From: a virus
IMG/VR virus record: IMGVR_UViG_3300027708_000315
Coordinates: 1-22,454 of that record
Direction: 5' to 3' (one strand)
DNA length: 22,454 nucleotides
How positions within the stretch are numbered: the first letter of the stretch is position 1; each line of letters opens with the position of its first letter. This document shows positions 2,366-22,162 of this stretch, one piece after another. The position numbers and the translations under genes are program-made. Below the pieces are notes generated by a model. The model was not told the origin of the DNA. It saw only the letters and a program-made list of their open reading frames with translations, and did no database searches.

Positions 2366-4438
2366 TTAATACGTCATTTCCGTAGTACTGATTTGCGCCA
2401 CGGTCCTGATTGTGGTAGATGCCTGTCCCGTAAATGTAACCGATAACCCGCCATTTGTGGTATCTGCGGACAGGGTGATTGCCCATGTAGCAGCACCTAC
2501 ATCAGCATATGAAGACATTACTGTAGGCGTTCCAACAAGGGCGGTAGAGGCAGCATTTGCACCCCGTTTAATTACACCCTCGATGTACCAGCCTTTAGTA
2601 TTTCCACCACCCGTTACCCCAGATATGATCTCTCCACGGAAATAGTAGGCTGAGTTATTTGGGAGGATTACTTGGTTGTTTGTACTAGCACTACCACCGC
2701 TACTTCTTAAAATTGTTGCAGTTGCATCAGTTGTTTGTGTTCCAAGTATTAACAAACTAGATTGTGAAGCACCTAATGTATAAGATAACGCACCCGCAAG
2801 GTTTGAACCAAATATACAATTTCCTTGAATTGCTCTTGTAGTTGCATATTGACCAACTAATACAGAATCATATCCACCAGTTGCTCTATTACTTTGACCG
2901 CCTAATACACTTGAATATGCGTTCGTTGCTTGTGCGCCTGTACCGCCAACTACAACAGCACCAATTCCAGACGCTGTGTTTCCATTATTAATGTTGTCAC
3001 CAGTAGTGCCACCACCACCAATGAAAGAAGCTAATCCGCTTGCGATATTGTTTCTTCCACCCGCAACAACAGACCAATCACCAGACGCTACGTTACCGTT
3101 AGCACTAGTACCAGCGTCCCCTCCACCTCCTACAAAACTGTATGAGCCTGTTGCTTGGTTATTACCGCCAGCAACTACTGCCCCGTGTGGAGTGTAGAAA
3201 AACAAAGTGTTTGTAGATGAACCTGAAGCGGCTTGGGACAAAGTTAAAGATGTACCGCTTACCGCCGCAACATAGGTGTAGTTGGCAATAGAAGTACCAG
3301 TAACTAATTGACCAACTTTAATGGAAGCATTGGAGCCTGACAGCGTTACTGCTGTTGTGGCATTCATTGTGCCTGACTGAGTTGTTACCGTTGAACCAGA
3401 TGTGCCAGAATTTGTCCAACCGCCACCAATAAAGTTGAAATATCCTGCGGCTGTATTTGAACCACCGTTTACCACAGCAGAATCTAATCCACTTGCAATA
3501 TTAGTTTCACCGCCTCCAACAAAAGCATCTATTCCGTTTGCCGAATTACCATATCCACCGACAACACTGCTCCATCCAGCATTTGCTTGATTGGAATAAC
3601 CGCCACCAATAAAACTACTTGTAGCACTTGCAACCCTGTTTGCCGCACTTCTAACAGTCTGCCAGTCCACCGCATTAGTACCACGGGCATTACCACCCGT
3701 AGCAGAAGAAGTAGTAGCCTGCGCTTGAAGTGCGCCTGTTCCTGCTGGCTGGACATATAGAGAACCGTCTGATTGGAGACCTAATTGCCCCGCGCCTGAA
3801 AAAGAAAGAGAAGGCGTACCGTAAACTGCAGTTGCACTTGTAGCCACGTAAGGATTTGCAGATGTACCAACTTCATATTGAGGAGCTGCTATGTATACAG
3901 TTTGCCCCGTTCCCGTAAATACCCAACTTGTGCCATCTTCTGACATAAATAATGCTATACCAGACGCTGATGAAACAGATAAAGTAATAGCCAGTCTCCA
4001 CCATCCATTTCCAATATTTGTAGATGCTGTGGATATAGGTGCGCCATTCCAGTTAGCCGTTACAGCACCTGTTGTCAAATTAAAAATTGATCCAACTGTT
4101 GTGGAAGCATTTGCCAAACCAATATAGTTAGATGTTCCTGCTTTAGCGTATACACTTAATGTGTATGTTGAACCCACATTAGATGGTATTTGCCTAATTG
4201 AATGGCTAACACTAGGTGTTGTAGTATCTGTTAATAATGCCGCTGTCGTTCCGTTAAATGGATCGGTTTGACCGCCAGTTACAGTTAAGTTTCCAACAGT
4301 CCAAGCAGCATTAGTTAGAGAAGATGAATATAAATAAAGGTTGTTACCACTACCCTTAACAATAGCATTCCCACCAACAGAGAAGTTGCCAGTACTAGGC
4401 GTTGCCGTATCTGTAATGTCGTTGAAATTGATTGTCAT
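2366..4438 (-). CDS. Tail fibre with YadA-like beta-roll repeats (paralogue 3)
   Basis: This 690-residue protein is the third of three tandem paralogous fibres. Layout: a short N-terminus (1-27); a carbohydrate-binding-like jelly roll at about 28-205 with the hallmark GNGWWRLAITL and a Gln-Tyr-Glu near its end; a GALQAQATTSSATGGNARG linker (about 233-252); then short repeats of the S-F/V-V/I-G-G-G-x-x-N-x-A-S-G type from about 263 to 540. These repeats match left-handed beta-roll YadA head motifs, which trimerise. A module of about 80 residues (about 342-420, with KVGQLVTGTSIANYTYVAAV) interrupts the repeats. The C-terminal domain (about 557-690) starts with LLILGTQTTDATATILRS. It lacks the virion-anchor domain of paralogue 1, so how it attaches is unclear. 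It starts one base after the previous stop without a good ribosome binding site, suggesting coupled translation. Confidence 0.85.
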   Translation of the reverse strand: MTINFNDITDTATPSTGNFSVGGNAIVKGSGNNLYLYSSSLTNAAWTVGNLTVTGGQTDPFNGTTAALLTDTTTPSVSHSIRQIPSNVGSTYTLSVYAKAGTSNYIGLANASTTVGSIFNLTTGAVTANWNGAPISTASTNIGNGWWRLAITLSVSSASGIALFMSEDGTSWVFTGTGQTVYIAAPQYEVGTSANPYVATSATAVYGTPSLSFSGAGQLGLQSDGSLYVQPAGTGALQAQATTSSATGGNARGTNAVDWQTVRSAANRVASATSSFIGGGYSNQANAGWSSVVGGYGNSANGIDAFVGGGETNIASGLDSAVVNGGSNTAAGYFNFIGGGWTNSGTSGSTVTTQSGTMNATTAVTLSGSNASIKVGQLVTGTSIANYTYVAAVSGTSLTLSQAASGSSTNTLFFYTPHGAVVAGGNNQATGSYSFVGGGGDAGTSANGNVASGDWSVVAGGRNNIASGLASFIGGGGTTGDNINNGNTASGIGAVVVGGTGAQATNAYSSVLGGQSNRATGGYDSVLVGQYATTRAIQGNCIFGSNLAGALSYTLGASQSSLLILGTQTTDATATILRSSGGSASTNNQVILPNNSAYYFRGEIISGVTGGGNTKGWYIEGVIKRGANAASTALVGTPTVMSSYADVGAATWAITLSADTTNGGLSVTFTGQASTTIRTVAQISTTEMTY

Positions 4439-4439
4439 A

Positions 4440-6545
4440 TTAGTAGGTCACTTCGCAAGTATTTATGGTTGCTACCCAACGTATCGTAGTTGATGCCTGT
4501 CCAGTTACTGTTACCGCCAATCCACCGTTTGAGGTATCAGCAGTCAATGTGAACGCCCATGTAGATGCACCAGAGTCATAGCCTATGTTGTCTATCCTTG
4601 GTGTACCGACTAGAGCAGTAGCTGCTGCATTAGCCCCGCGCTTGATACAGCCTCTGAATTCCCAACTAGATGTATTACCACCACCCGTTACGTTGGCAAT
4701 CATTGTTCCTGTAAAAGTGTAAGCAGAGTTGTTGGGAAGAATGACTTGGTTTGTTCCGCTTGCGGCAGAACTATTTGAACGCAATACTGTTGCAGTTGCG
4801 TCTGTGGTTTGAGTTCCAAGAACTAATAGTGCGGCTTGAGAATTTCCAGCCACATAAGTTCCAAAAGGTGTTTCACTAGCGGCAGTTACAGTATTTCCAA
4901 CAATTCCTCTAGTAGTTGAATAACTACCACCATAAACTGAAGAAGAAGAACCACTTGCAGTATTTGTTACTGCACCATGAACAAACGAATAGTTATTACT
5001 CGCTATATTGGTTCTTCCTCCAACAATTGAAGAACATACGCCACTTGCTGTATTTCCATATATATTTCCATCAAAACCGCCACCACCAATAAATGACGCT
5101 AGTCCAGAGGCTACATTCTTAATACCACCACCAACAACAGCATAGTCATTAGAGGCGGTATTCCTATTACCAGCAGTACCAGCATCACCACCTCCTCCTA
5201 TAAAGGAGTAAGAGCCAGTAGCCTGATTGTTACCACCACCAACTACTATTCCGTGGGGCGTGTAGAAGGAAAGAGTAGAGGTTGAAGAGCCACTAGCGTT
5301 TTTGCTTAGTGTGAGGGATGTTCCAGATATAGCGGCAACATAAGTGTCACCAGCGATGGAAGTGCCTGTGATGTATTGACCGACTTTGATACTAGCGTTA
5401 GAGCCTGACAATGTAACAGCAGTAGTGCCGTTCATTGTTCCGCTTTGGGTAGTTACAGCAGAACTAGAAGTGCCTGAGTTTGTAAAACCACCACCAATTA
5501 AGTTATAGTAACCATTTGAAGCATTAGATTGACCTCCCCCAATATAAGCGTAATATCCACCAGCAGTATTAATGTAACCGCTACCGACACCCGCAATATA
5601 ACCGCTTGCAGTATTACCAACACCGCCTGAAACATTTGAATATTGAGCAGTAGCCAAATTTGCCGCACCGCCAGATATTGTTGATGCCAAACCAGATGCC
5701 ACATTTGATGCGGCATTTCTAGTAGTCTGTAAATCAACAGCGTTTGCGCCACGGGCATTACCCCCAGATGTAGCACTGTTAGTTATATTTGCCTGTAACG
5801 CCCCAGTACCTGCTGGCTGAACGTATAGAGAGCCATCTGACTGTAGCCCGATACCTGCTACGCCTGATAAGGTTAACTGCGGTGTGCCGTAGATAATAGA
5901 AGATGTGGTAGGAACATATGTATTTGTAATTGGTCCCGCTTCTAATTGAGCGCCCCAAAGGTAAATTGTTGTTCCAGCTGTAACTGTTGTTGTGTTATCT
6001 GCTCCAGAAATACCATAGTCCACAAAAGCATATGTATTTGTAGAAACTCCTGTTGCTGAACAACGATACCATCCATTACCGACGTTTGTAATTGTTGAAG
6101 TTACACCAGCATTAACAGATCCAACCGTACCAGTACTTAAATTAAACCAAGCATACGAACTAGTACCAATAAAAGTTAAACTAATCCAACCGTAGTTGGC
6201 AGTGCCAGCTTTAAAATAAATAGAAGCTGTAAATGTTTCGCCTGATATAGCAAAATAAGGAGAATTCAAACCTCTTCTAGCGGCAGATTGCGTTCCTGAT
6301 GCAGTAAGAGTAGATGCCGTACTTGTACCATCAGGAGCAGTTGTTGAGTTTCCTGTTAATGTTGCACTTGACAATGTTGCCCAGTTTGAACCATTTATAG
6401 CCTGAGAGTAAATAACAAAGTTCTGTCCCGTTCCCAGCAGGTTCACACCACCAGTACCCTGTGGCACTAGGTTCAAAGACGCATTGGCATTTACAGTGTC
6501 AGAAACACTTAGCGTGTTGGTGTATTGATCGTATTTAATAGACAT
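4440..6545 (-). CDS. Tail fibre with YadA-like beta-roll repeats (paralogue 2)
   Basis: This 701-residue protein starts at the ATG at 6545 (MSIKYDQYTNTLSVSDTV). The frame is open for 13 further codons upstream, but that start would lie inside the previous gene. The chosen ATG overlaps the previous stop as TAATG and has GAGGTAA about seven bases upstream. Domains: short N-terminus (1-38); a carbohydrate-binding-like jelly roll (about 39-230), with GNGWYRCSATG and YLWGAQLEAG; the GALQ...GGNARGANAVD linker (about 249-270); YadA-like repeats (about 279-550), interrupted by the 80-residue module at about 354-432; and the shared C-terminal domain (about 568-701), ending TIRWVATINTCEVTY. It is closely related to its two neighbours but diverged at many synonymous sites, so the duplication is not recent. 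Probable role: receptor-binding fibre or tailspike; the substrate is unknown. Confidence 0.87.
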   Translation of the reverse strand: MSIKYDQYTNTLSVSDTVNANASLNLVPQGTGGVNLLGTGQNFVIYSQAINGSNWATLSSATLTGNSTTAPDGTSTASTLTASGTQSAARRGLNSPYFAISGETFTASIYFKAGTANYGWISLTFIGTSSYAWFNLSTGTVGSVNAGVTSTITNVGNGWYRCSATGVSTNTYAFVDYGISGADNTTTVTAGTTIYLWGAQLEAGPITNTYVPTTSSIIYGTPQLTLSGVAGIGLQSDGSLYVQPAGTGALQANITNSATSGGNARGANAVDLQTTRNAASNVASGLASTISGGAANLATAQYSNVSGGVGNTASGYIAGVGSGYINTAGGYYAYIGGGQSNASNGYYNLIGGGFTNSGTSSSAVTTQSGTMNGTTAVTLSGSNASIKVGQYITGTSIAGDTYVAAISGTSLTLSKNASGSSTSTLSFYTPHGIVVGGGNNQATGSYSFIGGGGDAGTAGNRNTASNDYAVVGGGIKNVASGLASFIGGGGFDGNIYGNTASGVCSSIVGGRTNIASNNYSFVHGAVTNTASGSSSSVYGGSYSTTRGIVGNTVTAASETPFGTYVAGNSQAALLVLGTQTTDATATVLRSNSSAASGTNQVILPNNSAYTFTGTMIANVTGGGNTSSWEFRGCIKRGANAAATALVGTPRIDNIGYDSGASTWAFTLTADTSNGGLAVTVTGQASTTIRWVATINTCEVTY

Positions 6546-8998
6546 TAGAAAGTTACCTCGGTTGTCTCCAGCTTGGCAACCCACCTTATCGTAGTTGATG
6601 CCACGCCAGTCACAGTCACTGCTAGACCGCCATTAGATGTATCTGCTGTCAATGCTACTACCCATGTTGTAGATGCGCCAGTACCGTTAGCCACCGCCAC
6701 TCTGTTTAGCATAGGTGTACCGATCAGCACCGTAGAGGCAGCGTTAGCACCACGCATAATCGCACCTTCAAAACTCCATGCCGCGCCGTCAGCAGCACCT
6801 GTTACGTTTGCAATGATAGAGCCTTTAAAGTAATAAGCAGAGTTGTTGGGTAGGATTAATTGGTTATTTGTACCTGCCGTTCCCCCATCGGTTGCAAGGA
6901 CTGTTGCAGTTGCATCTGTTGTTTGTCTAGCAAGAATTAAAAGTCTTGATTGAGATACACCAGAAGTTGTTGAAATTGGGGCATAACCACTTGGAAATAC
7001 AATTGAACCATTTATGCCTCTTGTAGTTCCATAAGTGCCACCAACAACAACAGAATAATCTCCATTTGCTAAATTTACATAACCACCAGAAATAACAGAG
7101 CGTGAACCAGTTGCCTGATTTCCAGTACCAGAGCCAACAAATGATTCTGTTTGTGATGCAGAGTTATTACTTCCACCAACTATTACGCATTGAGGGCCAG
7201 TTGCTTGGTTTTTAAATCCACCACCAACAACAGACCAATCCCCACTAGCCACATTCCTGTTAGCCGCAGTACCAGCATCTCCACCACCACCGATAAAAGA
7301 ATAAGAACCCGTGGCTTGGTTGTTTCCTCCTCCTACTACTACTCCGTGAGGAGTGTAGAAGTTAAGTGTATTTGTTGATGAACCTGATGCGTTTTGAGAA
7401 AGGGTTAGGGAAGTACCTGATATGGCGGCTACATAAGTGTGTGGGAAATTGCTTATGCTTGTACCTGTTATTAGTTGACCAACTTTAATTGATGCATTAC
7501 TACCAGACAAAGTAACAGCAGTTGTGCCGTTCATTGTTCCTGATTGTGTAGTTACTGCTGAAGATGAAGTCCCACTATTGGTATATCCAGTACCTACAAA
7601 ATTGTAAAAACCTGCAGAAGTATTGCTATATCCAGAAACAACAGCCGAATTATTTCCGCTAGTCGTATTTAAATATCCACCACCTCCAAATGCATATGTA
7701 CCAGAAACTGTGGCAGAAGTACCGCCAGATAAAACAGCAGAATATCCACTAACTGTGTTTGATTCTCCACCAGCAATAACAGAACAAAAGTTAGATGATG
7801 TATTTCTATAACCACCACCTATAACAGCATATTGTCCATTGGCTACTTGAGAAGCCGCATTACGGCTAGTCTGCCAATCAACAGCATTAGCACCCCTAGC
7901 ATTACCACCAGTAGCAGTAGATGTAGTGGCTTGTGCTTGTAGCGCACCAGATGGATATGATGGGCTTACCGCTAAGTTTCCATACTGGTCTAAATTCAGC
8001 ACTTTGTTGCCAGCAAGTTGTAAGTTGGGTGCGTTAAATACTGTGCTTGATGTTGTTATTACTGGTACGCCAACACTATTTGCGGCTTCTAGTTGTGCGC
8101 CATAAAGATAAATTCCTGATGTTCCTGTTCCAGCAAATGAAACAGAACCAGCACTGGCAATCTTAAAGTTTGATATAACATTTGCACCACCTGCGCCCTT
8201 GCTTGCAGACAAAGAACAACGATACCATCCATTGCCAACAGAAGTAATTACAGCAGTCCCGTTTGTCCAAGAACCACCAGCACTAACTGCTCCCGCAGAT
8301 ACTGTACTTAAATTAAATGTGCAAAGTACATCACCAGTAGATGTATCTGACATATCAAGTTGAATCTGACTATATTCAGCAGATTTTGCATAAATAGAAG
8401 ATGTTACATATTCTTGCGCTAAAACATAATCTGTTTGATTTATTGAATGATTGCCATTGGTGGTGTTATCAGTAAGTTTGAACGCATTAGAACCACCTAA
8501 AGGGTCTGTTGTAGCACCAGTTGTAGCAACAGTAGCATTAGTTAAACTCCAGACACCATTAGTAAATGTATTTGAATATGTAAGAAAGTTTTGACCAGTA
8601 CCAGTAATATTTTCTGTTTGTGCTGTTAGAGTAGTAAATGTTCCTGTCGATGGGGTTGTGCCACCAATAGCAGGTGGGTATGCAAGCGTATCTGTACTGA
8701 CTGCCTTCTCCGCTGGGTAATCTACCCAGACATTGACTGTGCCAGAGAAAGTTACCGCCGAGCCAGAGTTGCTCGATGACAGGATGGTTGTGCGGGTTAG
8801 TGTCGGGCCTGTGGTGGAGTAAGTTCCTACTCCGACTTCCCAACTACCAGATGTGTCCGTAGCAGTGTAGTAAGTTGTATTCGTATCCCCAATAACAGCG
8901 AAAGACTGATAGCCCGTGACAGAGCCAGTCAGGGTAAAACTCACCGTCGTGTTAGCGGTGCCTGTCTGTTGTACGCGGTTGTATAAGGCTAGAGCCAT
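6545..8998 (-). CDS. Tail fibre with virion-anchor domain and YadA-like repeats (paralogue 1)
   Basis: At 817 residues this is the longest of the three paralogous fibres. Residues 1-100 form a domain I recall from many phage tail proteins (MALALYNRVQQTGT, GYQSFAVIGDTNTTYYT, SGSWEVGVGTY, VNVWVDYPAEKAV), probably the part that joins the virion. A PPAIGGTTPSTGTFTT linker (108-123) precedes a jelly-roll carbohydrate-binding-like module (about 133-320; GNGWYRCSLSAS, YLYGAQLEA). After the GALQ...GGNARGANAVD linker come YadA-like beta-roll repeats (about 375-665) with an 80-residue insertion (about 469-551), then the shared C-terminal domain (about 681-817; TTDATATVLATDGG to TTIRWVAKLETTEVTF). AAGG lies about seven bases upstream of the ATG, in the three-codon end of the S74 fibre gene. 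Only this paralogue carries the anchor domain. Confidence 0.88.
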   Translation of the reverse strand: MALALYNRVQQTGTANTTVSFTLTGSVTGYQSFAVIGDTNTTYYTATDTSGSWEVGVGTYSTTGPTLTRTTILSSSNSGSAVTFSGTVNVWVDYPAEKAVSTDTLAYPPAIGGTTPSTGTFTTLTAQTENITGTGQNFLTYSNTFTNGVWSLTNATVATTGATTDPLGGSNAFKLTDNTTNGNHSINQTDYVLAQEYVTSSIYAKSAEYSQIQLDMSDTSTGDVLCTFNLSTVSAGAVSAGGSWTNGTAVITSVGNGWYRCSLSASKGAGGANVISNFKIASAGSVSFAGTGTSGIYLYGAQLEAANSVGVPVITTSSTVFNAPNLQLAGNKVLNLDQYGNLAVSPSYPSGALQAQATTSTATGGNARGANAVDWQTSRNAASQVANGQYAVIGGGYRNTSSNFCSVIAGGESNTVSGYSAVLSGGTSATVSGTYAFGGGGYLNTTSGNNSAVVSGYSNTSAGFYNFVGTGYTNSGTSSSAVTTQSGTMNGTTAVTLSGSNASIKVGQLITGTSISNFPHTYVAAISGTSLTLSQNASGSSTNTLNFYTPHGVVVGGGNNQATGSYSFIGGGGDAGTAANRNVASGDWSVVGGGFKNQATGPQCVIVGGSNNSASQTESFVGSGTGNQATGSRSVISGGYVNLANGDYSVVVGGTYGTTRGINGSIVFPSGYAPISTTSGVSQSRLLILARQTTDATATVLATDGGTAGTNNQLILPNNSAYYFKGSIIANVTGAADGAAWSFEGAIMRGANAASTVLIGTPMLNRVAVANGTGASTTWVVALTADTSNGGLAVTVTGVASTTIRWVAKLETTEVTF

Positions 8999-11366: not shown

Positions 11367-11843
11367 TTATGTTGTAGAAATACGCAGTAAAGCTGTCGTT
11401 GTAGTATTAGATGGCATTGTCAACGTAAAGTTACCAGCCGTAATTGTCTGGGAACCAAAAGTAAACACCGCTACCGCAGCATTACTTTGCGTTGAGTTGT
11501 ACATCAACATCGCATTAAAAGCTGTAGACAAAGTCACCGTAGAATAAACAATACTTGCCGAAGGAGTCCAGTACCCAACACCTGCTGTGACGGAAGAGTT
11601 GGTGGCAGTAGGCGCAGTAGCATTGGTTACTGTTAATCCGCCAGCAGTGTAGTTTGTTCCCGTTACCTCGTTAGTAGAAGAGTAGGCTGTAGTAGAGGCA
11701 TCAATCGTAGCAGAGGCTAAATACAAAGCTGCTTTAAAAGTGTCAGCGGTTGTGGCTGCGCGGATAGGAGCAACACCAAAGTTATGGGTTCCAGTCATTA
11801 ACTGGCCCAAAAAAGAAGTACACATGCTTTGAGTATTTGCCAT
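11367..11843 (-). CDS. Beta-rich phage structural protein (paralogue B)
   Basis: This 158-residue protein is rich in Thr, Ala and Ser with almost no charged residues, typical of phage beta-sandwich virion proteins. It aligns along its length with the 142-residue protein at 12048-12476: both have an N-terminal G-x-x-M-x-G-T-x-N-F, then TF-x-x-ALY...A-T-[IL]-DA-[ST]-TTAY, E-V-T-[AG]-[ST]-x-YTAGG, and a C-terminal F-T-[LV]-x-x-P-x-x-T-x-T-[TS]-A-[LI]-[LI]-RIS. It is therefore a tandem paralogue. AAGGA nine bases upstream of the ATG supports the start. Lying between the adaptor and the fibre genes, it may be a tail, tail-tip or decoration component. I recognise the sequence type from environmental phages but know no assigned function. 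Confidence 0.8.
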   Translation of the reverse strand: MANTQSMCTSFLGQLMTGTHNFGVAPIRAATTADTFKAALYLASATIDASTTAYSSTNEVTGTNYTAGGLTVTNATAPTATNSSVTAGVGYWTPSASIVYSTVTLSTAFNAMLMYNSTQSNAAVAVFTFGSQTITAGNFTLTMPSNTTTTALLRISTT

Positions 11844-11853
11844 ATCTGTTCCT

Positions 11854-12048
11854 TTATCCTAAAGAGGAGGTTTCTGCACCCACAAAACTGGGCACTTTTT
11901 TCAGAGTCACATGAGCGGAACGGTGGACAAGTTCTTCGCCTTTCCAGTACTCAACCCAAGTGGTCAGTTCGTTGTCATCTTCAAACGTGCCTTCCCGCTT
12001 CTCAAGCAAAGAGTCGTCCATCTCACCATACGTTGTAGTTACAAGCAT
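11854..12048 (-). CDS. Small acidic conserved phage protein
   Basis: This 64-residue protein (MLVTTTYGEMDDSLLEKREG, then a Thr-Thr-Trp-Val-Glu-Tyr-Trp segment and LVHRSAHVTLKK) begins at an ATG overlapping the previous stop as TAATG. It is acidic in its first half and basic near LKKVPS. I recall similar short proteins ('YG-MD-S-L-EKR', 'ELVHRSAHV-LK') among environmental phages, always without assigned function. It sits between two paralogous beta proteins and is probably translated with them. Possible roles are an assembly factor or a minor tail component; the sequence alone does not decide. Confidence 0.75.
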   Translation of the reverse strand: MLVTTTYGEMDDSLLEKREGTFEDDNELTTWVEYWKGEELVHRSAHVTLKKVPSFVGAETSSLG

Positions 12049-12476
12049 TACGAAATCCTTATGATGGCTGAAGTGTTAGTTACTGCTGGGAATTGTACGG
12101 TAAATGTATTGGTAGATGTCTTGTCATTACCAAAGTCCAACACACAAATAGCACCGTTGTCACCTGCTTTGTAAATCAATGCGCCCCTTGCGGTAAATGA
12201 ACCAGTCCATGAGGCGTTTGTAAATGAAATGTAGGATGTTGCCGCGCCAGTCTGGTTGCCGATTGTGGGAATCTGCGCGATTGTCAAAGCCTGACCGCCA
12301 GCCGTGTAACCAGAAGCTGTTACTTCGCCCGTGGCTGTGTATGCCGTTGTGGTTGCATCTAGCGTGGCTAAGTTGGTGTACAAGGCCATATAGAACGTGC
12401 CAGACGTAAAGTTAAACGTGCCATTCATTAGCCCCGTTTTAAATGTATTGCATGTCCAATTACCTGTAAAAGCCAT
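12048..12476 (-). CDS. Beta-rich phage structural protein (paralogue A)
   Basis: This 142-residue protein starts MAFTGNWTCNTFKTGLMNG at an ATG that overlaps the adaptor gene's stop (TAATG). It is Thr/Ala/Ser/Gly-rich, with a predicted all-beta fold: TFYMALYTNLATLDATTTAY, EVTASGYTAGGQALT, GALIYKAGDN, VLDFGND, NTFTVQFP and AIIRIS. The 158-residue protein two genes downstream has the same order of motifs. Its position just after the tail adaptor and before the fibres suggests a tail or collar structural role. I do not know a characterised member. Confidence 0.8.
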   Translation of the reverse strand: MAFTGNWTCNTFKTGLMNGTFNFTSGTFYMALYTNLATLDATTTAYTATGEVTASGYTAGGQALTIAQIPTIGNQTGAATSYISFTNASWTGSFTARGALIYKAGDNGAICVLDFGNDKTSTNTFTVQFPAVTNTSAIIRIS

Positions 12477-13192
12477 TATCTAATCCCAGTGTTCTGTGGC
12501 AAAGGCGCTTCACGGTACTGACCACTGCGGTACGCATCGCTACGCTCCAGACCATCTCCAAGACGTTTAGCCAAGGCAAGTGCTTCCTTGTACTTGGTGT
12601 CGTATAAGGTGATGATGTCTTGCTCACCCTTCATGTAGGTGTAAGCTTCGACCAAAGAACCGTACAGTAGCACAGTATCAAAGTTGTCACCAAGCCATGT
12701 AGTCGTAGCTGTAGTGATTGATTCTGGGTAGTAATAGTAATGCAGTTCTACGCTGTAGACCGCATCTGGAGTTGGGCCAAGAATAAACGATAGCTCAGTG
12801 CTAATCGTTGAGGATGCAACAGTTGGACCAAACAAAGCATAGTACTTAGGAGTACCTGTATCCGTAGGAATTGGGTATGCCTCACGGATAAAGTTAACGT
12901 CTTTGTTCAGCAAATATGTATACGATCCCGTGGCATCAATTACAGCCAATGAATAAGAGGCTAAAAAATCTAGCGGGCAAGATAGGTATTTATTTGTGGA
13001 AGTGACCGTGCCTGTTACATTTTTACGCAACGAAGGAAACTGAACAGAGTTGTATATACGCTGTTCAGCTTGCTCAATAAAGCGGTTCAACTGGGTCGTT
13101 GAAGACACAACAGTGCCATCTGCCAAAGTGGTAGACGGGAACGTATTCTCGGTATACGTTTGTATGCTGGTAATCAACTCGCTGTATGTCAT
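12476..13192 (-). CDS. SU10-like portal/tail adaptor protein
   Basis: This 238-residue protein begins MTYSELITSIQTYTENTFPS, followed by LNRFIEQAEQRIYNSVQFP, LRKNVTGTVTSTNKYLSCPL, an aromatic NKDVNFIREAYP, and a C-terminal helical region with the stretch LLYGSLVEAYTYMKGEQDI and YDTKYKEALA. The helix-beta-helix arrangement and these motifs match the phage SU10 adaptor family (T7 gp11-like fold), which forms a ring linking the portal to the tail. It starts at an ATG overlapping the stop of the 93-residue gene (ATGA). Its neighbours, a gp4-like protein upstream and beta structural proteins downstream, fit a connector-to-tail transition. The length is normal for the family and nothing appears missing. 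The family call is from memory of conserved motifs. Confidence 0.87.
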   Translation of the reverse strand: MTYSELITSIQTYTENTFPSTTLADGTVVSSTTQLNRFIEQAEQRIYNSVQFPSLRKNVTGTVTSTNKYLSCPLDFLASYSLAVIDATGSYTYLLNKDVNFIREAYPIPTDTGTPKYYALFGPTVASSTISTELSFILGPTPDAVYSVELHYYYYPESITTATTTWLGDNFDTVLLYGSLVEAYTYMKGEQDIITLYDTKYKEALALAKRLGDGLERSDAYRSGQYREAPLPQNTGIR

Positions 13193-13470
13193 GCCATCGG
13201 TCCGCGTGACATCACGCCTTTAGTAGCGCAACCAGTGCCGCGAATCTTTATGCCGTCGGTTTTGATGGCTTCATCACCAGCAGACTTGCTGAACTGACCG
13301 AGGCTAACGTCAGCGTTCTCTAATCTGCTTTTATTAGGAGGAAAGCCCGGATTAGTGCCAAACTCAGTAGGAGCTTGAGTCATTTTTTTACCAGACATAT
13401 TGTGTGGCTGGGCATAGACGCTGGCTGGGCCAACTTCTTTACCGCCTTTTTTCATGCTAAATGTAGCCAT
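13189..13470 (-). CDS. Small basic virion-module protein with KKGG and C-terminal DGI motif
   Basis: This 93-residue protein begins MATFSMKKGGKEVGPASVYA. It contains the Lys-Lys-Gly-Gly motif at residues 7-10 and ends with DGIKIRGTGCATKGVMSRG (72-90), a C-terminus I recall as conserved in several environmental phages. The ending is a variant of the DGIA-x-KGKT-K/R-G signature of three other small proteins in this window. The middle (PTEFGTNPGFPPNKSRLENA) is Pro/Asn-rich and probably flexible. The ATG overlaps the stop of the preceding gene (TAATG) and has GGGAG upstream. Lying between two connector genes, it may be a minor head or connector component, but no function is known to me. Confidence 0.8.
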   Translation of the reverse strand: MATFSMKKGGKEVGPASVYAQPHNMSGKKMTQAPTEFGTNPGFPPNKSRLENADVSLGQFSKSAGDEAIKTDGIKIRGTGCATKGVMSRGPMA

Positions 13471-13667
13471 TACTTGCTCCCTTGGTTTGCAACGCGGGCT
13501 AAGTTACGTCCCATAGACTTCATCATGTCCGTAGTTACGCCACCTTTTTTGAGTTTTAATTTAGTGTGCATTCCGGGATGCTCTTGTTTGTCATGCTGCT
13601 TGAAAGCCTTTTTAATAAGGGCTTTGTCTTGAGCCATATCAGATTTTTTAGATTCCATTTTTGCCAT
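13470..13667 (-). CDS. Small basic Lys-rich protein with KKGG motif
   Basis: This protein is 65 residues from the ATG at 13667 (MAKMESKKSDMAQDKALIKK). An in-frame TTG two codons upstream is unlikely to be the start because AGGAG ends right at it, whereas the spacing to this ATG is six bases. The sequence is strongly basic, with a helical N-terminal half (DKALIKKAFKQHDKQEHPG), then TKLKLKKGGVTTDMMKSMG and a short NLARVANQGSK tail. I recall the 'KAFKQHD-QEHPG-TKL-LKKGG' pattern from many environmental phage genomes, unassigned. A DNA- or capsid-interior-binding role would fit its charge, but that is inference. Confidence 0.8.
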   Translation of the reverse strand: MAKMESKKSDMAQDKALIKKAFKQHDKQEHPGMHTKLKLKKGGVTTDMMKSMGRNLARVANQGSK

Positions 13668-13676
13668 GTTCAACTC

Positions 13677-14105
13677 CTAAGTTGTTGCTATCGTAACTGT
13701 ACCAATTTGCACCAATAAAGCCAAGTTATTTGGCGTCAAAACTGCATCAAAACTGCTTGATCCGCCGACAGGATTCCAGCCCCATTGGAAGATTCTGCTA
13801 CCACCCTCTACAGTACCAAGACCGGTTGGACCAGTACCACCAGCATCATTAGTTTGTAATCCGCTGGTGCCAGAGGTTACATAACTCAAATCTGGACGTG
13901 GCTCCCGCAAAGCCTGCGCATCTTCTACTGGGTACATACCCAATTGCAACTGGGGTTGATCTGGCTCCCAACACTCAGGACATACCTTGATGTTTACCTG
14001 CTTTGTCTTGATTACCAGTTTTCTTAACTGCTTGAGCATGTACCGCTGACCACAGCGATCACACTCCGCAATTGCCCATTTGCCTGACGCAAACTTATTA
14101 GGCAT
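13677..14105 (-). CDS. Zinc-ribbon virion-module protein
   Basis: This 142-residue protein carries a probable zinc ribbon in its first 46 residues: Cys15-x-x-Cys18 (ECDRCGQRY) and Cys42-x-x-Cys45 (VCPECWEPDQP), 24 residues apart. After a Gln/Pro-rich linker and a Gly/Thr-rich stretch (about 80-98), the C-terminal 40 residues (FQWGWNPVGGSSSFDAVLTP, then LVQIGTVTIATT) look like beta structure typical of phage virion proteins. It overlaps the gp4-like gene by eight bases, so it is probably made in step with it. I recall zinc-ribbon proteins at this position, next to connector genes, in environmental phages. A structural zinc site in a connector or head-completion protein is plausible; DNA binding is an alternative. 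Confidence 0.8.
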   Translation of the reverse strand: MPNKFASGKWAIAECDRCGQRYMLKQLRKLVIKTKQVNIKVCPECWEPDQPQLQLGMYPVEDAQALREPRPDLSYVTSGTSGLQTNDAGGTGPTGLGTVEGGSRIFQWGWNPVGGSSSFDAVLTPNNLALLVQIGTVTIATT

Positions 14106-15018
14106 ACATCATGTTCCTTGGAACATAACGATCAGCCGCTTTATCTCTATCTTCCGTAGACGCCAATGCCCATTGCTCTTCGTACTCAGACTTCAGCCCA
14201 ATAGCACGCTCCAAAGCTCCGGGTATTTTTTGAGAAAGATAGAAAGCCAATCCTGCAACCATGCAAGGAATAAATCTAAATGGGATATCTTGGACATTTA
14301 CACCGCCACCAGCGTCTTGAACTCTACGCAATCTCCAATACACAAATGTATATTGGCTACCGGGATCTGCTGGAGTTGGCCACACATTAATGCATGGCAA
14401 CCAATTAGCATAAATTGATGCGCCGGCTGTATGCGCGGCAGCAGTCGTGTTGTTCTGCGCTCTAACGCAATTAAGCAGCTGGTTTCCACTTATGTTTGCA
14501 TAGTAAATGGTCTCTGAGTCAATGTTAATAAACCCAGTAGAGGCAACCTGAGATGCGTCACTAATTGTGATTGTTGTGTCCGCAGACGTAATAGTCGTGG
14601 ACAGCGTTGCCGTTGTTTTGTTTACATTCCCTGACTGGCGGTTAATCCATACTTGGATAGGGCGACCAGTAGCATTCTTGTTAGGGATAGTAGAGTAAGT
14701 TGACTCTGAAATACGGGTGATGTTCAAGTCAGATTGATTCTGATCCGTCCCAGTTCGGGTTACATGATCTAGCAAATCAATCGTATCTACAGGGAAAGGA
14801 TAGGAGATCTGACCAGTGTTTAGAGGAATAATCCCCTGCTCAATAGTCCATAAGTTGATACCTCTGTTTGCCCATTCAATGGTCAAAAGATTGAGGGAAC
14901 GACGTGCAGTACGCATGTCGTAACCAGTACGCAATTCTGATCCGCAACGCTCAAACGCCTCTTCGATTAAATCGGAAAGGTCTAGATTAAATGATGCGGT
15001 TCCAGAGGTATTAGCCAT
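14098..15018 (-). CDS. P22 gp4-like tail accessory / DNA stabilisation protein with inserted domain
   Basis: This 306-residue protein has a helical N-terminus (LDLSDLIEEAFERCGSELR, TARRSLNLLTIEWANRGINL), then TIEQGIIPLNTGQISYPFP, VWINRQSG and a helical C-terminus (IPFRFIPCMVAGLAFYLSQK, LKSEYEEQWALA). The order matches the P22 tail accessory factor gp4 family, a connector ring that closes the portal and stabilises packaged DNA. P22 gp4 is only about 166 residues. The extra length here is mostly an insertion at about residues 133-205, with the core FINIDSETIYYANISGNQLL and TTAAAH, which also occurs in the 955-residue protein. The ATG overlaps the previous stop as TAATG. The family assignment rests on the flanking helical segments and gene context. 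Confidence 0.83.
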   Translation of the reverse strand: MANTSGTASFNLDLSDLIEEAFERCGSELRTGYDMRTARRSLNLLTIEWANRGINLWTIEQGIIPLNTGQISYPFPVDTIDLLDHVTRTGTDQNQSDLNITRISESTYSTIPNKNATGRPIQVWINRQSGNVNKTTATLSTTITSADTTITISDASQVASTGFINIDSETIYYANISGNQLLNCVRAQNNTTAAAHTAGASIYANWLPCINVWPTPADPGSQYTFVYWRLRRVQDAGGGVNVQDIPFRFIPCMVAGLAFYLSQKIPGALERAIGLKSEYEEQWALASTEDRDKAADRYVPRNMMYA

Positions 15019-15263
15019 TACTCTTCTTCCGCTGGTACTTCTTCAGCAACAACTTCTTCAACTGCTGGCTCTTCCACCACAGGGGTTTCTTCAACCACGG
15101 GAGCCTCAACCACGGGGGCTGGTAGTTGACCTTCAACCTTAGCAACCAAAGCCTCTAGTTCAGCATCTTGCACGCCAAACATGGCTGTATAAGAAGCAGC
15201 TTTAGCACGAAGTGCGTCAACAATCATCTGATCTTCTGCGGGGGTTAGGGTAAGTTGTGACAT
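15018..15263 (-). CDS. Small protein with acidic Val/Glu/Pro tail
   Basis: This 81-residue protein is a helical domain (residues 1-47; LTPAEDQMIVDALRAKAASY, ELEALVAKVEGQL) followed by a Pro-Val-Val-Glu-Glu-rich tail (about 48-81) with at least five PVVEE/AVEEV-like units. The tail is strongly acidic, while the genes upstream encode basic proteins. AAGGAAACAC before the ATG supports the start. No family is recognised. The acidic tail might bind or neutralise the basic proteins made beside it, or serve as a scaffold or chaperone; that is inference from charge and position. Confidence 0.72.
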   Translation of the reverse strand: MSQLTLTPAEDQMIVDALRAKAASYTAMFGVQDAELEALVAKVEGQLPAPVVEAPVVEETPVVEEPAVEEVVAEEVPAEEE

Positions 15264-15272
15264 GTGTTTCCT

Positions 15273-15449
15273 TTACTTCTTCAAACCTTTGAGAGTCTCG
15301 GCTAGACGGGCGCGTTGACCCATTTTGCCGGGGGCTTTGGCTGCTTTCTCCAACTTCGCGGATGGAATCGGCTTGCCTTTTTTCGCACCAAGAGCGGAGC
15401 GCAGAGCGCCGGGTTTCTTGATTGCGTTCTGTATCCATTTTTCAGCCAT
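15273..15449 (-). CDS. 58-residue basic conserved phage protein
   Basis: This short gene is easily missed. The ATG at 15449 overlaps the previous stop (TAATG), and GGAGAAG lies six bases upstream. Its 58 codons read MAEKWIQNAIKKPGALRSAL, then GAKKGKPIPSAKLEKAAKA, PGKMGQRARLAETL and KGLKK, ending TAA at 15273-15275. The content is very high in Lys/Ala/Gly with no acidic run, and I recall nearly the same pattern ('W-Q-AIKKPGAL--LG-K-GKPIP') in many environmental phages, unassigned. A longer open frame at 15217-15438 in another phase has no such family resemblance and is a shadow. Role unknown; it is probably nucleic-acid- or capsid-associated given its charge. Confidence 0.85.
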   Translation of the reverse strand: MAEKWIQNAIKKPGALRSALGAKKGKPIPSAKLEKAAKAPGKMGQRARLAETLKGLKK

Positions 15450-15748
15450 TATCTTCTCCTTGATTCAGCCAATTTTAAAGAGTCAATCTTTCCACCTTTA
15501 GCCTTTTTTGCTGTCTTGGCAGATTGAATAAATGCATCTTCAGTAGGGGCGCCCTTGCTTCCGGGCTTCCTCATCTTCTCATTAGAGCCGTGGGCTATCC
15601 TCTGCTGTTTTGCATGGATATTGGCATACAAACCAACCTTTCCGCCCTTGGCGTACTCAGTAAAGTCCGTATTGTCACGGCGTGCTTTACGTTTTCCATC
15701 TGGCATCTTAGATGGACTGATTGCACCCATGCCACGGCTAGACATCAT
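15449..15748 (-). CDS. Small basic protein with two KGG motifs
   Basis: Chosen start: the ATG at 15748, overlapping the preceding stop as ATGA, with AAAGG about nine bases upstream; the adjacent ATG at 15745 is equally possible. The product is 99 residues: MMSSRGMGAISPSKMPDGKR, a basic stretch, EYAKGGKVGLYANIHAKQQR, a segment KMRKPGSKGAPTEDAFIQSA, and KKAKGGKIDSLKLAESRRR. The Lys-Gly-Gly motif occurs twice. The frame is open a further ten codons upstream inside the preceding gene, but that is unlikely to be used. I recall the 'GLYANI-AK--RI--GS-E-MR--G--G-P---AF' pattern in environmental phages, unassigned. Confidence 0.8.
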   Translation of the reverse strand: MMSSRGMGAISPSKMPDGKRKARRDNTDFTEYAKGGKVGLYANIHAKQQRIAHGSNEKMRKPGSKGAPTEDAFIQSAKTAKKAKGGKIDSLKLAESRRR

Positions 15749-16386
15749 TTTTTGCCTTTCATGTAGCCACCGCCACATGCAACGATAGTGCCACGGGTCT
15801 TGCCTTTAGTTGCAATACCGTCTGCACGGCTGGATGCAGTGGATCCACCTTTAGAAAACTTTATGGAGCCCATGCCCGTATATCCAGTCTCAGACTTGGT
15901 GCTCTTGAGTGGCAAAGGCTTGCGCTCCTCCCGCTCAGGCACCTTCATCTTATTCGTACCATAAAACGTACGTCCCTCTGCACGACGCTTTCCCTCAGCC
16001 TCGATCTCACGATCCTGTAGGCTTTGGTATTTCAGCGAAGGCTTAGGCATACGCGCGGCTAGGCGAGATGTTTCATCACCAGTATCAGTTACTTTTGGCG
16101 CAACAGATCTACTGGGTGAAGCAGACTCACCACGACGGGTTAAACCTTGTTGTTTATTCATGTAGTCACGCAAACTCAAACCTGATTTCTCAAGTTCTTC
16201 TTTGGTGACCATTTTTGGCTTAGCGCGTGAAACGTTTGCAGTTTCCTCGTCGCGCATCCCTTTTAAGATTTCTTCGCCGCGAGCTTCTGCTTGAGCATCA
16301 TCATAGGCTTCTTTCATCCCATAATTGCTATCTTCGCTAGTGACGTATCCCTCATTAGCGTAACGTTTTACTTTGCTTTTTGCCAT
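15745..16386 (-). CDS. Basic low-complexity virion-module protein with KGG and C-terminal DGIA signature
   Basis: This 213-residue, highly charged protein starts MAKSKVKRYANEGYVTSEDS. A charged middle (about 25-170; many Glu/Lys/Arg, including EELEKSGLSLRDYMNK) looks disordered or helical. The C-terminus has SIKFSKGGSTASSRADGIAT continuing into KGKTRGTIVACGGGYMKGKK, with KGG at 179-181 and the DGIATKGKTRG signature at 189-199. AAGGAG nine bases before the ATG supports the start. The signature recurs in the 103- and 167-residue proteins. No domain of known function is seen. A capsid-interior or connector-associated role is guessed from charge and gene context. Confidence 0.8.
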   Translation of the reverse strand: MAKSKVKRYANEGYVTSEDSNYGMKEAYDDAQAEARGEEILKGMRDEETANVSRAKPKMVTKEELEKSGLSLRDYMNKQQGLTRRGESASPSRSVAPKVTDTGDETSRLAARMPKPSLKYQSLQDREIEAEGKRRAEGRTFYGTNKMKVPEREERKPLPLKSTKSETGYTGMGSIKFSKGGSTASSRADGIATKGKTRGTIVACGGGYMKGKK

Positions 16387-16396
16387 GATAGGCTCC

Positions 16397-16900
16397 TTAA
16401 CACTTAGCCATTCCGCCTTTTTTCATGCCCTTGTTACCAGACATGACAATTTGCGTACCTTTGGTCTTGCCTTTAGATGCAACGCCATCGCGGCTAGGAG
16501 CGGCATGACGAACTTTGCCCATTGATGTACTGTTACCTACATCAACAGAACCGCCAGCAGCCATTTTTTTCATGCCGCCTTTTTTCATGCCCATCATCTC
16601 TTTTTTGTCCATTGCTTTGTCTTTAGCAGATGCTTCAAATTTAGCAAATGGGTTCATTTTCTTAGTAGCCATACTTCCACCTTTTTTAAAAAGTGCCTGC
16701 TCCCCATGATGGGTTTTAGGCTGGTTGATTGATTGTCTCTGAGGTTGTGTATCAGCACCACCCTTACTAAACTTCTTGCCTTTGTCGGCCTCACTGAAGT
16801 CGCGTCCCACGGATTGTGGGATCCCGACCTTTTTGGCAAACGCAGCATTGTGTGCCACGCCCTCCATCAAATTATGCTGTGCTTTACTCTTACTTGGCAT
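16397..16900 (-). CDS. Basic protein with four KGG motifs and C-terminal DGVA signature
   Basis: This protein is 167 residues from the ATG at 16900, which overlaps the previous stop (TGATG) and has GGGGAAG just upstream; an in-frame GTG one codon earlier is less likely. The N-terminus, PSKSKAQHNLMEGVAHN and AFAKKVGIPQSVGRDF (2-35), is one I recall as widespread in phages ('KAQH-LM--VAHN--FAKKVGIPQSVG'). Then come FSKGG (44-48), FKKGG (71-75), MKKGG (105-109) and, near the end, MKKGG (159-163), with DGVASKGKTKG at 138-148 and a C-terminal MAKC. Met77 (16672) follows a GGTGG and might be an internal start for a 91-residue form. The function is unknown. Confidence 0.8.
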   Translation of the reverse strand: MPSKSKAQHNLMEGVAHNAAFAKKVGIPQSVGRDFSEADKGKKFSKGGADTQPQRQSINQPKTHHGEQALFKKGGSMATKKMNPFAKFEASAKDKAMDKKEMMGMKKGGMKKMAAGGSVDVGNSTSMGKVRHAAPSRDGVASKGKTKGTQIVMSGNKGMKKGGMAKC

Positions 16901-17133
16901 CACTTCCCCGCAATAAGCTGGTCAATTTTTGCTTCAAGGCGATTAAAGCGTTGGTCAATGTGGTCAGTAATTCTTTGCACTTCTGCGTTAGTTGCGTAAT
17001 CACGGGCAATCTCCTCGCGTGTTTTGTTGAGCAGGATTTGAACCCGCTTTAACTCATCCGACTTGTCTTTCCATACCCACATGAGTACAGCAGAAAAAGC
17101 GGACAAAACTGAATTCCATATGATCATTTCCAT
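16900..17133 (-). CDS. Small membrane-anchored coiled-coil protein
   Basis: This 77-residue protein has one hydrophobic segment at residues 3-21 (MIIWNSVLSAFSAVLMWVW) followed by a charged helix to the end (KDKSDELKRVQILLNKTREE, then HIDQRFNRLEAKIDQLIAGK), consistent with one membrane anchor and a coiled coil. Its ATG overlaps the previous stop (TAATG). Similar short proteins in phages are often guessed to be holin- or spanin-related, but a single anchor with a coiled coil does not prove that. It lies within the structural cluster rather than beside a lysis gene, so a virion or entry role is equally possible. Confidence 0.75.
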   Translation of the reverse strand: MEMIIWNSVLSAFSAVLMWVWKDKSDELKRVQILLNKTREEIARDYATNAEVQRITDHIDQRFNRLEAKIDQLIAGK

Positions 17134-17444
17134 TAACAGAGCTTACCTTTGGTTTTGCCCTTTTGGGCTATACCGTCTGCCGCTTTAATGTATCCGCCCT
17201 CAGCGCAGTTCCACGCTCTAAGACTCTTGTTAATCCTAGAGTTCGGGTCGTTCGCTGTTTTTGCGGATGTCAACTTCTTTTTCATCCCACTCATGCGAGC
17301 GCAGAAAGAGTCGCGCCTTGAGCCGCCCTCTGGTTGAGGTGGTTTCAAGTCGTGCCCTTCTTTCTTCGCAGAGGCTCGCCCCTTGGCGTTCAAGCCGCCG
17401 TTGGGGTTCTTGCCTTCCTTGCGTTGCCATGCTGGTGTGGACAT
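17133..17444 (-). CDS. DUF6321-like small basic protein with C-terminal DGIA signature
   Basis: This 103-residue protein begins MSTPAWQRKEGKNPNGGLNA, followed by SRRDSFCARMSGMKKKLTSA and DPNSRINKSLRAWNC. These segments match, from memory, the phage/bacterial DUF6321 family ('W-RKEGKNP-GGLN--GR', 'SFCARM-GMK-KLTS--TA-DP-SRIN-SLR-WNC'). The last 22 residues extend beyond the family core with AEGGYIKAADGIAQKGKTKG and L-C, carrying the DGIAQKGKTKG signature (90-100). It starts four bases after the stop of the 955-residue gene with no clear ribosome binding site, so coupled translation is likely. The four Cys residues are spread and do not form an obvious metal site. Function unknown. Confidence 0.82.
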   Translation of the reverse strand: MSTPAWQRKEGKNPNGGLNAKGRASAKKEGHDLKPPQPEGGSRRDSFCARMSGMKKKLTSAKTANDPNSRINKSLRAWNCAEGGYIKAADGIAQKGKTKGKLC

Positions 17445-21250: not shown

Positions 21251-22162
21251 TTAGTATGAACCAGATGAGCCGAAAACGCCCAAAGGATCAGACCAGCCGA
21301 AGCTGTAACGCTCACGGGCCTTGTAACGCACGTTACCAGTATCGAAGTCGCCGTCCATGCTGTTTTGCAATGGTGTACGAACGAAATGCTTCAAACCGTT
21401 AGGTACGTCAGTTGTCAAGAACCAAGCATTGGTGTCAGTCAGATAGTGGTTAATTGTGTAACCTTCTGGAATGGCACCATTGTTTTTCAATGCGTTGATG
21501 TCGTTGTTGTTAGTTCCAACGCGGAGGCTGGTTTCTAACAGACGAGTCGCAACGAATTGCAATGCTGGTGGGATGATCAACTTCTTAGGCTTTGCAGCGA
21601 TCAACAGACCACGCTCATCAGTCCAAGCGGCGATTTGAATAACGGCGGCTTCCAAAGAAGTCTCGTTCAAATCAGCTTGAGTAGCTGGGGTGTTGCTGTT
21701 AACGCCACCGTTGACCAAGGGGTGTGAAGTGCTAAACAAAGCAACGCCGTCACCGCCAGCATAAGCAGCGCTGAAACCGTTGTTCAATGTAGCAGCAGCC
21801 TTGATCTGCTTGGTGTAAGCCATAGCGCGAGCCAAACCTTTGGTGTAGCGGGCTGACAAAGAATCGTAGAGGTTATCTTCGATAGCTTCTTCAGTGATCG
21901 CAAAACCCAAGGCAATGGTTTCGTGGTTATAGCGAGTTGTCCATGCCTCTTGTGCATTGTCATAAGCGATGGCAGAACCTTCGTTTTTGACTGGTGCGGC
22001 AGAGAAGCCAGACAGTTTGGTCTCTTCTTCGAAAGAACGCTCAGATGTCTCTGTTTCGTAGATCTCTTTGTGCTCTTCGCCGTAGCGAGCGTACTCAAGA
22101 CCGAACAATGCATTCAAGCCGGGAAGGAGTTCTTTAAGTAGTTGTGCGCGTGAAATAGCCAT
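21251..22162 (-). CDS. Major capsid protein (Mu gpT-like, HK97-type fold)
   Basis: This 303-residue protein begins MAISRAQLLKELLPGLNALF. Visible motifs are SFEEETKLSGFSAAPVKNEG, YNHETIALGFAITEEAIEDN, the helix LSARYTKGLARAMAYTKQ, ALFSTSHPLVNGG and KKLIIPPALQFVATRLLET; the end is RYKARERYSFGWSDP with a short Gly/Ser tail. This order matches major head subunits of the Mu gpT-like group, which have the HK97 capsid fold. TAAGGAG directly before the ATG supports the start and overlaps the previous stop. A strong terminator follows, consistent with separate, high expression of the shell protein. Residues 1-50 may be a scaffold-like N-arm; no protease site is called. Family placement is from memory of motifs. 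Confidence 0.92.
   Translation of the reverse strand: MAISRAQLLKELLPGLNALFGLEYARYGEEHKEIYETETSERSFEEETKLSGFSAAPVKNEGSAIAYDNAQEAWTTRYNHETIALGFAITEEAIEDNLYDSLSARYTKGLARAMAYTKQIKAAATLNNGFSAAYAGGDGVALFSTSHPLVNGGVNSNTPATQADLNETSLEAAVIQIAAWTDERGLLIAAKPKKLIIPPALQFVATRLLETSLRVGTNNNDINALKNNGAIPEGYTINHYLTDTNAWFLTTDVPNGLKHFVRTPLQNSMDGDFDTGNVRYKARERYSFGWSDPLGVFGSSGSY

Follow-up and report, generated by a model that had tools for sequence, protein, structure and literature searches.

The window analysed here is the 22,454-base virus record IMGVR_UViG_3300027708_000315 of IMG/VR, whose structural genes lie on the minus strand. Three of its small proteins, of 103, 167 and 213 residues, carry near the C-terminus a short motif with the consensus D-G-[IV]-A-x-K-G-K-T-[KR]-G. 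Here we show that this tail is shared by unrelated protein bodies in many viral contigs, that it is selected as a peptide and gained as a module, that it is strictly located in one gene interval, and that it is predicted to be disordered. We tentatively propose, giving the idea slightly less than an even chance, that the tail is a disordered docking tag for interchangeable, mostly basic small proteins that bind a common partner and are most likely loaded into the phage head.

The tail and the bodies that carry it

The initial annotation of the window had noticed that three proteins with unlike bodies end alike, and this was borne out. The degenerate DNA pattern of the motif matches the window three times, versus no match in 100 dinucleotide shuffles. 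With the tails cut off, the best pairwise alignment among seven small window proteins is no better than E = 0.3; with the tails kept, the 103-, 167- and 213-residue proteins align through the tail only (E 4e-4 to 4e-3). The annotation had also counted a KGG string in six small proteins: the string is present, in five of the seven (those of 167, 213, 109, 93 and 67 residues).

A scan of 2.9 million IMG/VR viral contigs with the motif pattern gave at least 120 loci, and the residue-reversed motif, used as a control, had no match in the same contigs. A second scan, with cysteine fixed at position 3 and residue 8 left open, again gave at least 120 loci. Pooled, the two scans comprise at least 532 open reading frames (ORFs) with the motif in at least 220 loci; the motif lies within 30 residues of the C-terminus in 520 of the 532, and the protein ends exactly three residues past it in 313. 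The C-terminal position expected from the window thus extends across phages. In the first set the motif is near the C-terminus in 261 ORFs and near the N-terminus in 19, most of the latter being members of a family of 62-64 residues (MAFxxxADGIAxKGKTKGKNLGDSGP...), and two proteins (in L025 and L066) have a tandem double motif. The N-terminal placement in this family and the tandem copies are typical of a linear binding motif.

The pattern was found once in the GTDB genome collection, on a contig (L123, JAGYJT010000012.1) titled as a Chitinophagales metagenome-assembled genome; since the capsid and connector genes on it are those of this phage type, it is probably misassigned or misbinned phage DNA. 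Searches by tblastn with the tail alone and with the 62-residue family gave no matches in annotated phages, and isolate relatives were therefore reached via the capsid and adaptor genes. Sequence searches of the PDB gave nothing useful. No description of the motif was found in the open-access papers searched, although it may be mentioned elsewhere.

The bodies of the first-scan loci, stripped of their tails, fall into about 103 clusters (BLAST, E 1e-5, 40% coverage), 78 of them singletons, a number that is an upper limit because remote homology is hidden in short low-complexity proteins. Only a handful of 106 body representatives match Pfam or PHROG. The motif is thus neither scattered at random positions in unrelated proteins nor the end of one family that aligns along its full length, the two outcomes that would have spoken against a shared tail. 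The bodies are basic (median isoelectric point 10.1; 85% above 9) and contain few large hydrophobic residues; about 8% of the tagged bodies are acidic. A C-terminal cysteine is present in 129 of 261 C-terminally tagged proteins (L003-L122), versus 4 of 664 (0.6%) untagged ORFs of at least 150 residues in the same loci.

The largest body cluster is that of the 167-residue window protein, in which an N-terminal module is followed by a KGG-rich linker of variable length and by the tail, the ends being conserved and the middle not. The first ~44 residues of the window protein are 72-74% identical to phiKZ-type small proteins (phiKZ165.1, PHROG 16759); the phiKZ protein is a stand-alone one of 58 residues, whereas here the module is fused to the variable linker and tail. 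In other phages this module lies beside portal or terminase genes or starts proteins annotated as structural (121Q, XbC2, Shewanella phage QDWS, BUCT555; annotations taken as given). A Foldseek search with the model of the 167-residue protein gave only weak matches in the PDB and, in BFVD, small uncharacterised phage proteins, several of them from phiKZ-like phages.

The body of the 103-residue protein is a DUF6321 domain (PF19846), scoring 70.8 bits against a curated cut-off of 28.5. Most DUF6321 homologues in these loci are tail-less: 6 of 92 are tagged and the rest typically end in ...RAWNC or ...RAWKC. A different linker (...RVWKCADGCAVRGLTKGKYV) connects this domain to the tail in the second set, which suggests that the domain has acquired the tail repeatedly. 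The tail is an optional add-on module. In cyanomyoviruses the domain instead forms the end of a large protein whose gene is flanked by terminase genes, as in Synechococcus phage ACG-2014f (L133:3412-6243), where the protein has ~943 residues and its gene lies between those of the gp16 and gp17 terminase subunits; this gene position suggests a head-related role for DUF6321.

Selection acts on the tail as a peptide

In total, 283 motif copies are encoded by 271 distinct 33-mers, in which the codons of the invariant residues differ at the third position, not at the first or second. Because synonymous codons vary so freely, it is the peptide itself that is selected. AlphaFold2 gives the tail of the 103-residue protein a predicted local distance difference test score (pLDDT) below 50; in the 167-residue protein the N-terminal helices, three in number, have scores above 80, and the rest of the chain scores low (~45-56 in the tail region). 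The tail is therefore best read as a predicted disordered linear motif. The tag as a whole would span about 25 residues, with the consensus KGGxVSSASKRADG[IVC]Ax[KR]GKT[KR]G[KR]M[VC]-end or, in a longer variant, with the ending ...GGKxC.

Most copies literally match G-x(4)-G-K-T, and the string could be taken for a Walker A loop, which would make the proteins nucleotide-binding. However, in the second scan, where residue 8 was unconstrained, this position is occupied by K in 120 copies, by R in 10, by L in 6 and by H in 4 (non-K in 20 of 140), and in the models of the 103- and 167-residue proteins the region is predicted to be disordered, with no strand before GxxxxGKT such as a P-loop fold would have. 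We give nucleotide binding practically no chance: R, L and H at residue 8 rule out the P-loop reading, and the resemblance to Walker A is accidental.

Codon usage also bears on the expression of the neighbouring genes. At Gly11, GGA or GGG is used in 66% of short tails but in 8% of long tails, and the remaining glycines of the motif use these codons in 2-13% of cases. In short tails the next ATG is mostly at the stop codon or within a few bases of it, and in long tails the same bias is shifted to the glycine three codons before the stop. Because of this bias near the stop, together with the position of the next ATG, we place the ribosome-binding site of the next gene so that it overlaps the end of each tagged gene. 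In addition, tails can be copied between genes: at one locus (L041:3135-4302), the tail DNA of three tandem tagged genes is identical, and the identity continues across the stop codon and into the start codon that follows. Both the codon bias and the tandem genes are what would be expected if the tail had no role as a peptide and were kept for expression and recombination, encoding the site at which ribosomes bind for the next gene and offering a seam of homology at which cassettes are exchanged. We consider this very improbable. The bias tracks the distance to the stop codon rather than the motif and hence does not explain the motif, whose core is freely synonymous. Long tails, internal copies and N-terminal copies, which need no ribosome-binding site, contain the motif too. 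The tail as a ribosome-binding site only is rejected on the same evidence of purine codon bias, and the codon variation leads us to reject the idea that the conservation stems from a recombination site or another element at the DNA level, although tail copying does occur.

Tails of different bodies in one genome agree beyond shuffled expectation at positions 3, 5 and 14 (0 of 2000 shuffles) and more weakly at positions 6, 10 and 13. Rare variants of residue 8 also co-occur within genomes (8 pairs versus 1.07 expected; 0 of 5000 shuffles), and their synonymous codons often differ, as in the three GHT tails of one locus (L205). At third codon positions the agreement within genomes is only slightly higher than expected (0.47 versus 0.42; 56 of 1000). 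Judged by these comparisons, the agreement is what one genome-specific partner would be expected to produce.

Genomic place and the gene block of the window

Homologues of the window's capsid or connector genes accompany the tagged genes at 119 of 121 loci. As these loci had been fetched around motif matches, 18 whole records were scanned too, and 49 of their 50 pattern matches lie in one cluster per record; the remaining one is a different string on the opposite strand and spurious. Among 78 records with both the capsid and the adaptor gene, 193 of 198 copies lie between the two (0-6 per interval, mean 2.5), so that the expectation that motif proteins adjoin connector genes was correct. A SU10-type adaptor gene follows downstream of the portal-adaptor homologue. 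It should be noted that confinement to the capsid-adaptor interval is not absolute, because one contig without the usual core genes (L210:1370-1729) has a tagged gene of 119 residues between the terminase large subunit and a protein of 982 residues, whose N-terminus resembles a lytic transglycosylase.

In nearly all records the tagged genes immediately precede the adaptor gene, a position that would suit a tag binding from the outside to the portal-adaptor neck or to an intermediate of assembly; the proteins would then be head-completion or connector accessories, or transient chaperones, and not packaged cargo. We consider this alternative rather unlikely. Connector accessories are usually few and conserved, whereas here both the number and the sequences of the bodies are hypervariable. 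The two adaptor genes themselves, including the SU10-type one, are conserved single genes that lack the tag.

The capsid proteins of tagged records share 75-94% identity with that of the window, so the bodies turn over inside a fairly tight lineage. More distant relatives, with capsids 39-65% identical (pelagiphages HTVC023P and HTVC027P, phage 023Pt_psg01, DSL-LC04, Roseobacter phage CRP-901, Alcaligenes phage QDWS535 and Caulobacter phage GB2A), have no recognisable tail in the stretches searched. In Planktothrix phage Pag-Yong1 and Synechococcus phage MinM2 (capsid 72% identical; 69% GC in the stretch read), an unrelated body of 308 residues ending in RDGCAKRGRTKGRFI is found at the corresponding place, its gene being flanked by those for a minor capsid protein and the portal-adaptor. 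The label 'freshwater' for this phage group may be apt; it rests on the isolates and on the expectation of the initial annotation.

Lysine, arginine and glycine are abundant in the tail and the bodies are basic, as would be expected if the tail bound nucleic acids and kept small basic proteins attached to the genome during replication or in its packaged form. We regard this as improbable. The fixed D1-G2-x-A4 ... G7-x-T9 pattern exceeds a charge patch in specificity, residue 8 can be Leu or His, the acidic bodies are tagged as well, and a generic DNA-binding peptide should not be limited to one lineage and one gene interval.

The features of the window are listed in Table 1. The N-terminal module of the 167-residue protein belongs to PHROG 16759 (E 7.4e-20), and the protein also matches PHROG 22033, a virion structural family (E 9e-10). 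The 213-residue protein has no family match in Pfam or PHROG; the tail is present in 12 of its 13 closed matches, some of which match through the tail region only. The capsid protein that borders the block is of the Phage_capsid_4/Mu gpT type, and homologues of the portal-adaptor protein are labelled adaptor, portal-adaptor or tail adaptor in DSL-LC04, Pag-Yong1 and CRP-901/902.

Table 1. Tail motifs, tail genes and bordering genes in the window
Feature	Position	Strand	Basis or remark
Tail motif DGIAQKGKTKG, 103-residue protein	17145..17177	-	3 residues before protein end
Tail motif DGVASKGKTKG, 167-residue protein	16457..16489	-	19 residues before protein end
Tail motif DGIATKGKTRG, 213-residue protein	15790..15822	-	14 residues before protein end
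103-residue protein: DUF6321 domain (residues 11-78) with appended tail	17133..17444	-	Pfam PF19846 E 1.5e-19; tail pLDDT <50
77-residue tail-less neighbour, same block	16900..17133	-	50 homologues, 0 with tail
167-residue protein: N-terminal three-helix module (phiKZ165.1-like), variable KGG-rich linker, tail ending in Cys	16397..16900	-	PHROGs, alignment, AlphaFold2 model
213-residue orphan body (MAKSKVKRYANEG...) with tail	15745..16386	-	Sequence comparison
109-residue tail-less small basic protein, same block	15449..15778	-	PHROG 16028 E 4e-23; 92 closed homologues, 0 with tail
Major capsid protein, upstream border of tail-gene block	21251..22162	-	PF25209 E 6e-15; Mu gpT E 2e-9
Portal-adaptor homologue, downstream border of tail-gene block	14098..15018	-	Homologues in annotated phages
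93-residue protein with RGTGCATKGVMSRGPMA end, outside the tail family	13189..13470	-	Single-copy family
Second connector, SU10-type adaptor	12476..13192	-	PF24175 E 1.2e-22

The end of the 93-residue protein had been put forward as a variant of the motif (DGIKIRGTGCATKG at 13216-13257), a suggestion that we reject: the ending RGTG[AC]ATKGxMxRGPMA belongs to one orthologous family, present in one copy per locus at 55 loci, with all bodies in one cluster. HTVC023P encodes a protein (L127:21361-21726) with KMIRGFGAARTTG close to the end, which may be distantly related to this family. Elsewhere in the window, three adjacent proteins of 690, 714 and 817 residues (2366-8998, minus strand) resemble paralogous fibres with repeats of the GGGxNxAxGxxSxVxGG type; Pfam gives no match for them at E 0.001. 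Two nearby paralogues of 142 and 158 residues (12048-12476 and 11367-11843, minus strand) both match PHROG 644, a family of unknown function.

Candidate roles and known packaging signals

A disordered, duplicable and position-tolerant motif on many unrelated small basic proteins encoded among late genes is most economically explained as a docking tag. The roles suggested in the initial annotation, namely a sorting or packaging tag, binding to the capsid interior or the portal, and binding to nucleic acids, are compatible with this anatomy as candidates. According to this model, the tagged proteins would be made together with the late structural proteins, and all tags of one phage would bind the same partner, most likely a component of the inner shell, the scaffold or the portal vertex. 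The tagged proteins would thereby be loaded into the head, where they would sit with the DNA, and could be ejected into the host. We prefer loading into the head over binding to the neck because the bodies are hypervariable, like the internal proteins of T4, and because the module of the 167-residue protein is found beside portal and terminase genes and in proteins annotated as structural, and matches a virion structural PHROG.

Several points weigh against this model. Packaging of the tagged proteins is something that we infer, and the nearby adaptor genes fit a partner in the neck as well as one in the interior. Older copying of tails followed by synonymous drift could look similar to the agreement of tails within genomes, and copying does occur, as the three identical tail DNAs of L041 demonstrate. 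The tag has been seen in essentially one viral lineage. Finally, it is C-terminal and has no conserved glutamate for T4-type cleavage, whereas the T4 signal is N-terminal and is cleaved off; the sites of the T4 prohead protease are of the type (L/I)-x-E.

A more specific version of the docking-tag model is that of a C-terminal packaging tag in widespread freshwater phages, which would bring hypervariable, cassette-like small proteins into the virion via one receptor, the bodies being exchanged while the tag and the overlapping ribosome-binding site stay in place. This version is possible, though we would not call it probable. If true, the tag would mark a large pool of phage proteins delivered with the genome from sequence alone; the proteins so labelled would be good candidates for counter-defence and host takeover, and the tag would be a short C-terminal handle for introducing chosen proteins into the particles. 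Should the proteins not be packaged, the sharing of one disordered tag by about 100 unrelated bodies in one gene interval still points to one common partner, which can be looked for directly.

There are functional precedents for such a signal. In phage T4, a short peptide sends small, basic and divergent internal proteins into the prohead (PMC9026906), and in phage P1 a stretch of the cargo protein DarB carries it into the head (PMC9024508). The likeness to the T4 capsid targeting sequence (CTS), present on IPI-III and Alt, lies in a short peptide common to small, basic and divergent proteins that vary between related phages; in the phages studied here, too, one peptide is found on several unrelated small proteins of a single phage. 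The T4 CTS differs in being N-terminal and removed by the prohead protease, whereas the tag, with its putative packaging role, is C-terminal except in one small N-terminal family, and its profile has no conserved glutamate as a cleavage site. Given these differences in position and cleavage site, we do not claim that the tag belongs to the T4 CTS family, and a resemblance in sequence between the two has not been established. The P1 signal is alike in that it targets cargo to the head; it differs in that it resides on a very large anti-restriction protein, whereas here one tag is found on about 100 small bodies. By analogy, both systems are precedents for the function that we propose for the tail.

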